From Gammaproteobacteria bacterium (GTDB lineage: Bacteria > Pseudomonadota > Gammaproteobacteria > Steroidobacterales > JABDMI01): 50,568 nucleotides of DNA. The notes beneath the pieces were generated by a model. The model made no database searches and was not told the DNA's origin. It saw only the letters and a list, made by a program, of their open reading frames with translations. Below are positions 16,923 to 27,133 of the stretch, piece after piece; positions within the stretch are counted from its first letter, which is position 1, and each line of letters opens with the position of its first letter. The translations under genes and the position numbers were made by a program. The stretch spans positions 1 through 50,568 of the forward strand of contig JABDMI010000048.1 of NCBI GenBank assembly GCA_013001575.1. Reading direction: 5' to 3'.

Positions 16923-17513
16923 GTGAGCGACGATAAGGTAGATTCCGGACGCCGTCATTTTCTAACGGTCGCAACCACCGTTACTGGCGTAGTCGGAGCT
17001 GTAGCTGCTGCAGCACCATTCATTCTTTCTCTTAAACCCAGTGCCCGTACCCAGGCACTTGGCGCACCGGTTGAAGCCGATGTGTCCAAGCTTGAGCCGG
17101 GTGCCCGCATGATCGTCGAATGGCGCGGTAAACCCGTGTGGATCATTCGTCGCACCCCGGAAATGTTGGCTAGCTTGTCCAAATACGACAGTCTACTCAA
17201 GGATCCCAATTCAGAAGACCCGAATTCACTGCAACCAAGTTACGCACAAAACGCCGATCGTGCCATCAACCCGGAATTTCTGGTGCTTATCGGTGTTTGT
17301 ACTCATCTTGGTTGCTCGCCTGAATTCAGACCACAACCGGCAGCGGACATCAACAGCGGCGGGTTCTTATGCGCCTGTCATGGTTCCAAGTTTGACCTTT
17401 CTGGTCGTGTGTATAAAGGCGTTCCGGCTCCAACCAACTTGCCGGTACCGGCGTATCGTTTTATTGGCCCGTCCAATATCCTGATCGGTGACGACACAGG
17501 AGTAGCAGCATGA
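16923..17513 (+). CDS. petA: Ubiquinol-cytochrome c reductase iron-sulfur (Rieske) subunit
   Basis: The Rieske subunit of the cytochrome bc1 complex, 196 residues. The N-terminal GRRHFLTVAT is a twin-arginine-type signal that remains as the membrane anchor (hydrophobic 14-36). The 2Fe-2S ligands are C126 and H128 in CTHLGC and C150 and H153 in CACHGS; C131 and C152 form the structural disulfide. The second box has Ala where Pro is usual (CPCHGS). The start is GTG 16923 with AGAGG about 6 bases upstream. Its stop overlaps the petB start by 4 bases. Confidence 0.97.
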   Translation: MSDDKVDSGRRHFLTVATTVTGVVGAVAAAAPFILSLKPSARTQALGAPVEADVSKLEPGARMIVEWRGKPVWIIRRTPEMLASLSKYDSLLKDPNSEDPNSLQPSYAQNADRAINPEFLVLIGVCTHLGCSPEFRPQPAADINSGGFLCACHGSKFDLSGRVYKGVPAPTNLPVPAYRFIGPSNILIGDDTGVAA

Positions 17514-24115: not shown

Positions 24116-24946
24116 GTGAGTACCCTGTATCTGGTAGCAACCCCCATCGGAAATCGTGAAGATATGTCTCCGCGTGGCAGCCGCATATTGAGCGAAGTAG
24201 ACATTGTGTACGCCGAAGATACCCGCCATAGCCGGCAATTGCTATTTGCTTTCGGGATAGAAGCCGAATTGCGCTCCCTGCATCAACACAATGAAAAAGT
24301 ACGAGTTACCGAAGTCATCGACTTGTTGGATGCGGGTAAAAATATCGCCTTGGTCTCCGATGCCGGCATGCCATTGATCAGTGACCCGGGCTCCTTGCTG
24401 GTTGCATCAATCCAGAAATCAGAGCACAGCGTTGTGCCCATTCCCGGTCCCAGTGCGGTGATCGCCGCTGTGGCGGGTTCGGGCTTGAGCACCCAGCCAT
24501 TCAGTTTTTTCGGCTTTCTGCCAGACAAAAAAGGCAAACGTGAAAATTATATATCGTCATTAACAAATCTTGCGCACACACTGGTGTTCTTTGTGGCGAT
24601 CCATGATCTGCAAAAATACCTGAAAGAGATCGAGGGCATTTTCCCAATCCAGACCCTTTGTGTGGCGCGTGAACTCACAAAACTGCATGAACAATTTTAT
24701 TCGGGTACGGCGAGTGAGTTATCCGAGATGATAGAATCAAGACAACTGGTTCTGAAAGGCGAGGCGGTGTTGTTGATCGATAATACGCAAGCCGAATCGG
24801 GTGATTCTGAGTCAATTAACAAGTCTGAGATCATCAAAGCCTTTGCCAATGAGTTGCCAAGCAGTAAACTGGCCAAGATCATCGCCAAACTGACGGGTGA
24901 GAATCGCCAGGATGTGTATGCCGAAATAGAGGAGCTGAAAAAGTGA
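24116..24946 (+). CDS. rsmI: 16S rRNA (cytidine-2'-O)-methyltransferase RsmI
   Basis: Methylates the 2'-O of C1402 in 16S rRNA, together with RsmH, which targets N4 of the same base and is encoded at 27145. The 276 residues have the tetrapyrrole-methylase-type fold: YLVATPIGN, YAEDTRHSRQLL, LVSDAGMPLISDPG and PIPGPSAVIAAV. The start is GTG 24116, since the family N-terminus begins there. The stop codon lies inside an 8-bp inverted repeat (24943-24961). Confidence 0.96.
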   Translation: MSTLYLVATPIGNREDMSPRGSRILSEVDIVYAEDTRHSRQLLFAFGIEAELRSLHQHNEKVRVTEVIDLLDAGKNIALVSDAGMPLISDPGSLLVASIQKSEHSVVPIPGPSAVIAAVAGSGLSTQPFSFFGFLPDKKGKRENYISSLTNLAHTLVFFVAIHDLQKYLKEIEGIFPIQTLCVARELTKLHEQFYSGTASELSEMIESRQLVLKGEAVLLIDNTQAESGDSESINKSEIIKAFANELPSSKLAKIIAKLTGENRQDVYAEIEELKK

Positions 24947-24991
24947 CAATAAAATTGTCACTTTATTGTCATCCCGTACAAGATACGGGAT
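24943..24991. repeat. Two adjacent short inverted repeats after rsmI
   Basis: The first is GTGACAAT (24943-24950), AAA, ATTGTCAC (24954-24961), an 8-bp perfect stem containing the rsmI stop. The second is ATCCCGTA (24971-24978), a 5-base loop, TACGGGAT (24984-24991), again perfect. The TCATCCCG...CGGGATCC pattern resembles short dispersed palindromes known from many proteobacterial genomes. The first hairpin may also help end rsmI transcription, though its T tract is poor. Confidence 0.65.
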
Positions 24992-25025
24992 CCATTTATT
25001 TTAATAATAACAACCGGAGAAACCC

Positions 25026-25451
25026 ATGACCGCCACCGAAGATATTTTCCTACCCGCCATCGCTTTGATTTTATGGACCCTGGTTTATGCCGGAGTTATG
25101 GGGTATTACCGAGTGCGTTCTGCCAAAGAAGGCAAGGTGGATCCGCGCGCGTTTAAAACCTACGCCGACACTTCATCCTTTACGGACACTATGCGAAAGA
25201 TGAGTAATCATTACGACAATCTACTCATGATGCCAATGTTGTTTTATGTGATTGTGATTATGGTTTATATAACCGATTCTGTTGACTCGGTATTTATAGG
25301 CCTTGCCTGGATCTATGTGGGATTACGCTTTGTGCATTCCTTTATTCACTTGGGCAGGAATAATCCGATCAAACGCTTTATGCCGTTTGCAGGGAGTGCA
25401 CTGGTGTTGTTGATTATGTTATTGAAGTTAGCGGTGGGATTGGCTAGTTAG
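25026..25451 (+). CDS. MAPEG family membrane protein
   Basis: A 141-residue integral membrane protein with about four hydrophobic helices (8-28, 70-88, 90-108, 118-139). The second and third have the MAPEG pattern: MSNHYDNLLMMPMLFYVIVI and IYVGLRFVHSFIHLGRNNPIKRF, the latter with the conserved RxxHSxxH-like segment. MAPEG proteins include membrane glutathione transferases, but many bacterial members have no known substrate. It lies in the only accessory-looking pocket of the window, between rsmI and rnpB. Its stop overlaps that of the broken minus-strand gene by 3 bases. Confidence 0.85.
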   Translation: MTATEDIFLPAIALILWTLVYAGVMGYYRVRSAKEGKVDPRAFKTYADTSSFTDTMRKMSNHYDNLLMMPMLFYVIVIMVYITDSVDSVFIGLAWIYVGLRFVHSFIHLGRNNPIKRFMPFAGSALVLLIMLLKLAVGLAS

Positions 25452-26003
25452 TTATTGCAGCGATAGTTGAGTTTTCGTTTAGTGTTTTCTTCAAAGTTGG
25501 ACGTTTCGGAAATTGAAATAACACCGTATTTACGAGTGAATTTATATTCAATCAAGTTGGGTAGATAGCATCCTAGATTCTTCCCAGAAAAATCCCATAC
25601 ATATTCATTGTAGATACCCTCTGATGAATCAAGACATGAAATTGATTTAATATTGAGTAAACTGCCTTGCTCTTCTTGTAAAGACAGCTTATTGCAAGGA
25701 AACAATAGTTTCTGATGAGTGAGTTCGGGTAAGAGATATCTATTATCCGAATATATCAATGCAAAAACTTTCGTATTCCCATCGAAATCTTTTAAGTAGA
25801 GATATTTCGATATTTTTCTGCTGTAACTTTGAAGAACTTATATTCGCCATTGTTAAGGTTTGGATCCGTGAAGCTTCTACTATGATCTCCTCTATCTTTT
25901 GCTAATGATGTTGGAGCAAGACTGGAAAATAAAATATAAATTACAAATACTAGACCTGTAAACAGAAAAAAAGTATCGAGCTTTTAAGTATCCGCTTATT
26001 CAT
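25448..26003 (-). pseudogene. Broken gene for a secreted protein of unknown family (two frameshifts)
   Basis: From ATG 26003 the frame reads a basic N-terminus and hydrophobic core but stops after 17 codons. Adding one base to the T7 run (minus strand, 25972-25966) restores a good signal peptide ending FSSLAPTSLA. A second single-base shift, in the A5 run at 25817-25813, restores the frame through YLYLKDFDGNTKVFALIYSD to a stop at 25448. The repaired protein would be about 185 residues with several Cys residues in the second half. The region is visibly more AT-rich than its neighbours, suggesting transfer. I do not recognise the family. Sequencing error and true decay are both possible. Confidence 0.6.
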
Positions 26004-26017
26004 AAATTTTAAATCTC

Positions 26018-26045
26018 TTGCGAAATTTCCAACTAAGTGTATCGT
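26018..26045 (+). promoter_or_regulatory. Candidate rnpB promoter
   Basis: TTGCGA (26018-26023), a 16-base spacer and TATCGT (26040-26045) sit just right for a start near 26053, the first base of the RNase P P1 helix. The match to sigma-70 consensus is moderate; position is the main support. Confidence 0.5.
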
Positions 26046-26052
26046 ACCACCC

Positions 26053-26406
26053 CTGAGCCGGCCAGACAGTCGCTGTTGATCTCGTATCAATGGAGGAAAG
26101 TCCGGGCTCCACAGGGTAGAACGCCAGATAGCGTCTGGGTGGTGTGAACCAACGGAAAGTGCCACAGAAAATATACCGCTGACTCCGGTCAGTAAGGGTG
26201 AAATGGTGCGGTAAGAGCGCACCGCGCGTCTGGTAACAGGCGTGGCAGGGTAAACCCCGTTCGGAGCAAGGCCAAATAGGGGAGTTGGGGCGAAAGTCCC
26301 GCCTGTGACCCACAGGGCTCCCGGGTAGGCTGCTTGAGATGCCTGGTGACAGGTAATCCAGATGAATGACTGTCCGCGACAGAACCCGGCTTATCGGCCG
26401 GCTCAG
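26053..26406 (+). ncRNA. rnpB: RNase P RNA, type A
   Basis: The catalytic RNA that matures tRNA 5' ends. CTGAGCCGGCC (26053-26063) pairs with GGCCGGCTCAG (26396-26406) to form helix P1, which sets both ends at about 354 nt. The universally conserved GAGGAAAGTCCGGGCTCC lies at 26093-26110. Further landmarks are CACAGAAA near 26163, GGCAGGGTAAACCCC near 26243, and the GATGAATGACTGTCC and CGACAGAACCCGGCTTA segments near the 3' end. A T run (26409-26413) directly follows. Its position between rsmI and mraZ matches other gammaproteobacteria. Confidence 0.97.
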
Positions 26407-26572
26407 ACTTTTTCTGTATAAATAATATACAATTTCACTTTCTTAACAAGTGCTTAAAGGAAGTGCTTGTAAGTCACTGATATTCCGTTTTATTAGTCCT
26501 CGATTTTTCCTGTTTTATGGTGTAAAATGTGCCGTAAGTCACTGTTCTCACACATTTTTTTCTAAAATACAG

Positions 26573-26602
26573 TTGACACTCTCACACCACATTAACTATA
26601 GT
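26573..26602 (+). promoter_or_regulatory. Promoter of the dcw cluster (Pmra)
   Basis: A consensus -35 TTGACA (26573-26578), an 18-base spacer and -10 TATAGT (26597-26602) give a strong sigma-70-type promoter. Transcription would start near 26609, immediately before the MraZ boxes, leaving a leader of about 78 bases to mraZ. Confidence 0.8.
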
Positions 26603-26611
26603 GTCGATTAG

Positions 26612-26635
26612 TGGTAAAAAGTGGGAGAAAATGGG
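26612..26635 (+). promoter_or_regulatory. MraZ operator: three 10-bp-spaced TGGG-type boxes
   Basis: TGGT (26612-26615), TGGG (26622-26625) and TGGG (26632-26635) repeat at exactly 10-bp intervals with A-rich spacers. This matches the known MraZ binding pattern of TGGGN repeats separated by 5 bases. The site lies just downstream of the promoter, so MraZ would repress its own operon. The first box departs from consensus at its fourth base. Confidence 0.85.
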
Positions 26636-26686
26636 TTTTTTAGGCACTGTCTGGTCACCTGACCGCAGAAACCCGACAAATAAGTC

Positions 26687-27133
26687 ATGTTACGTGGTGC
26701 AAGCCAAATCAATCTCGATGCCAAGGGTCGCTTATCGATCCCTTCGCGCTATCGTGCCCAGCTGCAAGAAACCTGCCAGGGCCAGGTTGTGGTTACCGTG
26801 GATAAAGACTACTGCCTGTTGATCTACCCCTTCCCGGAATGGGAAGACGTTGAACGCAAACTCAACCGCCTGCCCAACCTGAATAAACAGGCCCGCCGCT
26901 TACAACGCTTGATGATCGGTTACGCCTCGGAAGTTGAAATGGATGGTAACGGCCGTGTATTGCTGCCCAAAGAGTTACGCGCTTTCGCCGGATTGGAAAA
27001 ACAAGTGGTCTTGCTGGGGCAAGGCAACAAGTTCGAGCTTTGGGACGAAACCCGCTGGAACGAGAATCGCGATGCCTGGTTGGCAGAAGACGATGGCCCT
27101 CTCGAGGGCGAATTAGAAACCTTGTCGTTGTAA
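26687..27133 (+). CDS. mraZ: Transcriptional regulator MraZ
   Basis: The AbrB-like regulator at the head of the dcw cluster, 148 residues. It has two tandem half-domains, each with the DxxxR motif: DAKGRLSIPSRYR near the N-terminus and DGNGRVLLPKELR at about 84-96. MraZ forms ring oligomers that bind repeated TGGG boxes; three such boxes lie 52-75 bases upstream. rsmH follows after 11 bases. The start ATG 26687 gives the family N-terminus LRGASQINLDAKGR. Confidence 0.96.
   Translation: MLRGASQINLDAKGRLSIPSRYRAQLQETCQGQVVVTVDKDYCLLIYPFPEWEDVERKLNRLPNLNKQARRLQRLMIGYASEVEMDGNGRVLLPKELRAFAGLEKQVVLLGQGNKFELWDETRWNENRDAWLAEDDGPLEGELETLSL

Follow-up and report, generated by a model that had tools for sequence, protein, structure and literature searches.

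A broken gene of a putative cluster-less Rieske-subunit look-alike, and its scattered intact relatives, in Gammaproteobacteria

The DNA analyzed here (the window) is a contig of 50,568 nucleotides from a gammaproteobacterial genome. Between the gene of a MAPEG-family membrane protein and rnpB, which is itself followed by mraZ, we found a broken gene on the minus strand that is read in three successive frames (Table 1). The first-pass annotation had proposed a secreted-protein gene on exactly this span, interrupted by two single-base shifts at homopolymer runs; our data agree with both its coordinates and its two runs, each of which lies near a frame change. Translation would begin at an ATG at position 26003 and end at the stop codon at 25448-25450, with the peptide of the third stretch occupying 25451-25810, stop excluded. 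The second stretch has no ATG, GTG, or TTG in its own frame from the preceding stop to the membrane helix. In addition, the broken gene is AT-rich (GC 0.33), and the 1-kb window that holds it has a GC content of 0.379, compared with 0.446-0.545 for the remaining 49 one-kb windows. The contig also carries petA, the gene of the genuine Rieske iron-sulfur subunit, ~8 kb from the broken copy.

Table 1. Features of the window and of loci in other genomes that are discussed in the text
Feature	Location	Strand	Evidence or remark
petA, genuine Rieske subunit, intact	16923..17513	+	TIGR01416 220.2 bits, above cut-off; PF10399, PF00355; CTHLGC and CACH motifs
MAPEG-family membrane protein	25026..25451	+	PF01124 E 5.6e-18; tail-to-tail overlap of 4 bases with the broken gene; one of three MAPEG genes near look-alikes
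Broken gene of cluster-less Rieske-subunit look-alike	25448..26003	-	Three frames in turn and family profile match
First stretch: 13 N-terminal residues from the start codon on, positively charged at the start	25965..26003	-	Aligns with family N termini
Second stretch, different frame: membrane helix, SLAP hinge, linker	25804..25965	-	
Third stretch, different frame: outer domain (W, G, and the two cysteines conserved) through the stop codon	25448..25810	-	Window-free profile E 1.1e-18
A7 run near first frame change	25966..25972	+ (as read)	
T5 run near second frame change	25813..25817	+ (as read)	
rnpB, RNase P RNA class A, upstream of broken gene	26054..26409	+	RF00010, 331.5 bits
Ligand-less Rieske paralogue L084	G633:C84:174422-174937		By eye
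Ligand-less Rieske paralogue L085	G633:C49:20127-20393		By eye
Ligand-less Rieske paralogue L086	G621:C9:190246-190773		By eye
MAPEG gene near look-alike	L042 2036-2449		
MAPEG gene near look-alike	L048 145-684		

The read-through protein, with an X at both joints, was searched against 147 genomes (the window's own and its relatives), and the single match outside the window's own genome was an open frame of 188 residues in genome G116 (E 8.0e-7). When the G116 protein was searched against 396 genomes of the order, it recovered the window (E 1.6e-6, residues 60-147) and revealed three full-length relatives (in G325, G162, and G165; E 1.7e-35 to 1.3e-31). As many as 288 of the 396 genomes were positive in this search, the other places among the matches listed covering only about the first 50-87 residues. 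We fetched 26 of these partial matches (loci L014-L039), and 25 of them yielded a genuine Rieske subunit with both ligand motifs; the remaining one (L023) was omitted, and the 25 proteins served as the PetA control set. A five-row profile that included the window uncovered four more members among 369 genomes of the class (in G732, G633, G621, and G410). A nine-row profile then added one member from the order (G114; 6 of 396 genomes positive, including the window) and two from a draw of the phylum (G1060 and G402; 3 of 398 positive, including the window), the draws of order, class, and phylum overlapping one another. The weakest members are those in G114 and G402 (E 6.9e-7 and 1.4e-6), and these two and the G1060 protein are present only in a later twelve-row alignment and absent from the nine-row one.

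Collectively, 11 other genomes carry the family protein, in each case in a single open frame with no stop inside the match, and two congeners, whose genomes are 73% and 89% complete, gave no family match. The family is rare and scattered in the class. Searches of plasmid records by tblastn were negative both for the last stretch of the window copy (E limit 0.01) and for the G116 protein (at an E limit of 0.001). Among viral contigs, none of 45 pattern-matching stretches was confirmed; among genome contigs, none of 30 was confirmed with the window piece as the query, and of 90 found with the G116 protein the only one confirmed was its own record. Four members and the window piece were also compared with PADLOC, in which none of the five proteins had a match, and with PHROGs, in which there was one chance-level match (E 0.078). 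The whole family has no name in these two libraries or, for the eight members scanned, in Pfam and NCBIfam, and no such family is described in the titles or abstract openings of the papers that literature searches listed. The first-pass annotation did not recognize the protein; its front half, as shown below, is related to the Rieske iron-sulfur subunit.

For a single fixed reading at GC 0.33, a stop-free run of 187 codons has a probability of ~5.5e-7, although a reader who may switch frames gets more tries. To avoid circularity, we built a profile from the 11 other members, leaving the window out, and searched it against 1869 six-frame segments of the window. The third stretch ranked first, the window's own petA ranked second (E 2.6e-12, N-terminal half only), and the middle stretch taken alone was weak (E 0.48, rank 5). 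The joined reading, with X at both joints, scored 80.4 bits, compared with 63.3 bits for the outer part and 12.5 bits for the front half, a gain of 17 bits; none of 300 controls in which the front half was shuffled in two blocks reached that score (maximum 75.5 bits). The joined reading surpasses all of these controls, and we therefore conclude that the three frames carry one protein, with moderate support for its front part. The relatives, the profile match, and the joined-reading score all speak for a genuine coding gene whose frame is broken twice, as had been proposed.

The front of this protein resembles that of the cytochrome bc1 Rieske subunit. Model TIGR01416, which describes that subunit, matches 6 of the 8 intact members, only over its first ~57-74 positions, with E-values of 1.1e-9, 3.2e-8, 2.3e-6, 0.006, 0.012, and 0.035, of which the last three are weak; of the other two members, one has no match and one matches another family at chance level. 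None of the eight reaches the cut-off of 97.4 bits (best, 38.5 bits). PF10399, the Rieske N terminus, is above its cut-off in one of the eight (E 1.5e-5) and below it in three others, and the window reading itself matches nothing in Pfam up to an E-value of 1. A full-length comparison of the nine-row family profile (window included) with the 25 genuine Rieske subunits of the order gave a probability of 98.5 and an E-value of 1.9e-15, the N-terminal half carrying the signal. Among solved structures, the best of eight matches was the front of a bc1 Rieske chain (E 0.004), and the other seven were chance-like (E 0.07 to 0.72). At the level of sequence, a Rieske-type N-terminal anchor and hinge are thus present in the family, being recognized in the window copy through the family profile only. 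For what the first-pass annotation took for an excellent signal peptide, the more apt description is a Rieske-subunit-type membrane anchor at the N terminus.

The look-alikes share with PetA (TIGR01416, PF10399 plus PF00355) the N-terminal membrane anchor, the SLAP-type hinge, and the linker to about residue 70. They differ from it in that cluster-ligand motifs are missing from all 12 members, the TIGR01416 cut-off is missed by all eight scanned, and the twin arginine is absent from 7 of 12. The window reading has no RR among its first 20 residues, whereas 5 of the 12 members have one there; a looser pattern is met by all 25 PetA proteins. Loss of the twin arginine would fit a protein that no longer needs to be exported folded around a cluster. 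In addition, no look-alike gene was seen by eye beside petBC, whether in the window or around the eight intact members whose flanks were read.

Beyond the linker lies an outer domain of ~100 residues, in which two cysteines, a tryptophan, and a glycine are identical in 9 of 9 members and, in the later alignment, in 12 of 12, window included. The two cysteines probably form a disulfide. The ligand motifs C.H..C and C.CH were found in none of the 12 members, the window copy among them. Aligned alone with the Rieske domain, the outer domain fell short of significance, with an hhalign E-value of 0.36 for nine rows and of 0.016 for twelve rows, the latter at a probability of 2.8; 3 of 200 column shuffles scored equally well, and the reversed control was lower. 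For the G116 protein, AlphaFold modeling in which the window piece served as the second row gave a pLDDT of 42.4, too low for the model to be of use. The order of the end motifs in the profile alignment (W..xGK..., NM/NL, and the final strand) agrees with the end of the Rieske domain, a result equaled by 3 of 200 shuffles. A Rieske origin of the outer domain is no more than suggestive.

The strongest competing explanation is that a Rieske-type anchor has been fused to an unrelated small domain, in which case only the targeting part would come from the Rieske subunit and the tethered domain would do something else. Significance against the Rieske models is indeed confined to the N-terminal half, whereas the end-motif agreement points the other way, with the same 3 of 200 column shuffles doing equally well. 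Also counting against a fusion are ligand-less Rieske paralogues in two of the carrier genomes. A genuine Rieske subunit above the TIGR01416 cut-off is present in all 11 genomes considered (the window's, those of the two congeners, and those of the eight family carriers other than G114, G1060, and G402), and below the cut-off there are further Rieske paralogues, two in G633 and one in G621. Their alignments with genuine subunits cover residues 5-181 of 182, 1-151 of 188, and 35-209 of 212 compared, with blastp E-values of 8.6e-20, 7.7e-10, and 2.9e-21 in a 17-sequence database. Inspection by eye shows changes at the ligand positions, with each motif keeping its second cysteine, which indicates that ligand loss with a presumed disulfide kept occurs in this class; the look-alikes may be an extreme case of it. 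These paralogues resemble the look-alikes in being PetA-like with changed ligands; unlike in the look-alikes, the alignment with PetA spans most of the part compared. NirD, the small subunit of nitrite reductase, provides a precedent: it has the Rieske fold but no cluster ligands, is encoded beside nirB, and, unlike the look-alikes, is cytosolic and has no membrane anchor; no such Pfam match appeared among eight look-alike members at E up to 10. We regard fusion to an unrelated domain as a possible origin, though a less likely one than a degenerate Rieske domain. By eye, the G621 paralogue also runs on into a C-terminal stretch resembling ankyrin repeats.

Since all 11 relatives are open in one frame, the two breaks belong to the window copy and frameshifting is no trait of the family; with its frame broken here and intact in every relative, the window copy was classed as a probable pseudogene. 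The first-pass annotation had offered recent decay of a transferred gene, phase-variable tracts, or assembly error as the cause, and of these, recent decay of an acquired gene is the best supported: the GC content is 0.33, the native codon model does not call the gene coding, and the congeners have no match. The lack of any in-frame stop in ~187 codons, together with the conserved residues, points to a recent loss.

If the frame had instead been lost through assembly or base-calling error at two short runs, the gene would be intact in the organism. Both frame changes do lie at homopolymer runs, the assembly is in 132 contigs, and the conserved residues and absence of in-frame stops suggest selection until recently. 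We gauged the error rate on 21 pieces of the genome totaling 288,612 bases, namely, the window and 20 other stretches, on which the codon model was trained and of which 259,540 bases were called coding. This analysis uncovered 66 direct same-strand frame changes; 65 of them had some start codon, and 61 had an ATG, at most 60 bases from the upstream stop. As a positive control, one base was removed at random inside long frames; 246 of 250 simulated deletions were detected, with some start codon nearby in 189 and an ATG in 113 of the 246. A nearby start codon of any kind is a weak test because so many simulated deletions also have one; the difference in ATG frequency (61 of 66 vs 113 of 246) indicates that most real frame changes are gene junctions, which argues against error. 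As an upper estimate, the five ATG-less changes translate into at most ~9 true shifts in the 259,540 coding bases, or ~0.02 expected in 556 bases, although the scan is tuned to native codon usage and is blind to the broken gene itself. Two shifts in one small gene would be an outlier and are unlikely as general error, and we consider assembly error an improbable cause.

Still less plausible is a phase-variable or programmed-frameshift gene, in which slippage at both runs would restore the full protein in some cells or transcripts: the changes are located at runs, but both runs would need to slip together, runs of seven and five are short for slippage, and all 11 relatives use a single frame. 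Random open sequence with no gene is hardly credible, since the codon model's non-coding call for 25449-26684, a region that also holds rnpB, is outweighed by the match to a profile built without the window and by the four conserved residues kept in the window copy.

We assign a probability of about two-thirds to the reading that joins these results, namely, that the window holds a recently inactivated accessory gene whose intact copies encode a Rieske-derived anchor and hinge with a cluster-less periplasmic domain, serving as a redox-inactive companion or competitor. The intact proteins would be ~160-210 residues long, with an N-terminal anchor and hinge descended from the cytochrome bc1 Rieske iron-sulfur subunit, followed by a periplasmic domain of ~100 residues that has two conserved cysteines and no [2Fe-2S] ligand motifs. 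Such a protein would reside in the inner membrane, face the periplasm, and, being redox inactive, may accompany the genuine Rieske subunit or compete with it. In either role, it might bind the bc1 complex or its assembly pathway through the common anchor and hinge. Its loss would be tolerated here because the genuine petA is intact.

We postulate, as a decidedly speculative and rather improbable extension, that Gammaproteobacteria harbor a scattered family of cluster-less membrane proteins derived from the Rieske subunit, that these serve cytochrome bc1 as regulators, decoys, or non-redox partners, perhaps with MAPEG enzymes, and that the window captures one of them being lost. The broken copy by itself is an ordinary gene loss; what makes it of interest is the family, whose proteins are anchored like the Rieske subunit, lack cluster ligands, and are unnamed in the libraries scanned. 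If this family touches cytochrome bc1, it would provide a natural redox-dead stand-in for the moving subunit that could be used to test subunit recruitment.

The flanks that were read of the family members have no common neighborhood. A MAPEG gene nevertheless lies within ~0.8 kb of the look-alike in three cases: in G325 and G732 it is downstream on the same strand, and in the window the two genes meet tail to tail. The 12 genomes hold 32 MAPEG genes, which gives a chance expectation of ~0.04 within 1.5 kb (Poisson P ~1.2e-5); the proximity was spotted post hoc among 19 scanned neighbor proteins of the relatives and the genes around the window copy. We treat the association between MAPEG genes and look-alikes as a lead only. 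The mixed neighbors (DUF4240, Cdd1, and AAA_15) raised the idea of a function in defense, as a toxin, or in immunity, which is unsupported. Small helix-hairpin-helix (Cdd1) or TfoX_N genes lie near three members (L048 2989-3249, L094 1144-1431, and L041 38-370), the matches in L048 and L041 being below the Pfam cut-offs.

The interval between the MAPEG gene and rnpB differs within the genus: in G001, rnpB is preceded by other sequence, and contig boundaries of both G001 and G002 fall at this interval (window 25452-26053; L007 1-450; L009 1940-2120; L008 1-120). It may be a variable spot. No direct repeats of at least 12 bases were reported in 24900-26800, and two inverted pairs of 12 bases were found there. 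A short inverted repeat (ATCCCGTA...TACGGGAT) is located between rsmI and the MAPEG gene, at 24967-25005; two similar copies occur on another contig (G000:C128:16545-16632), and a similar one occupies the same place in G001.
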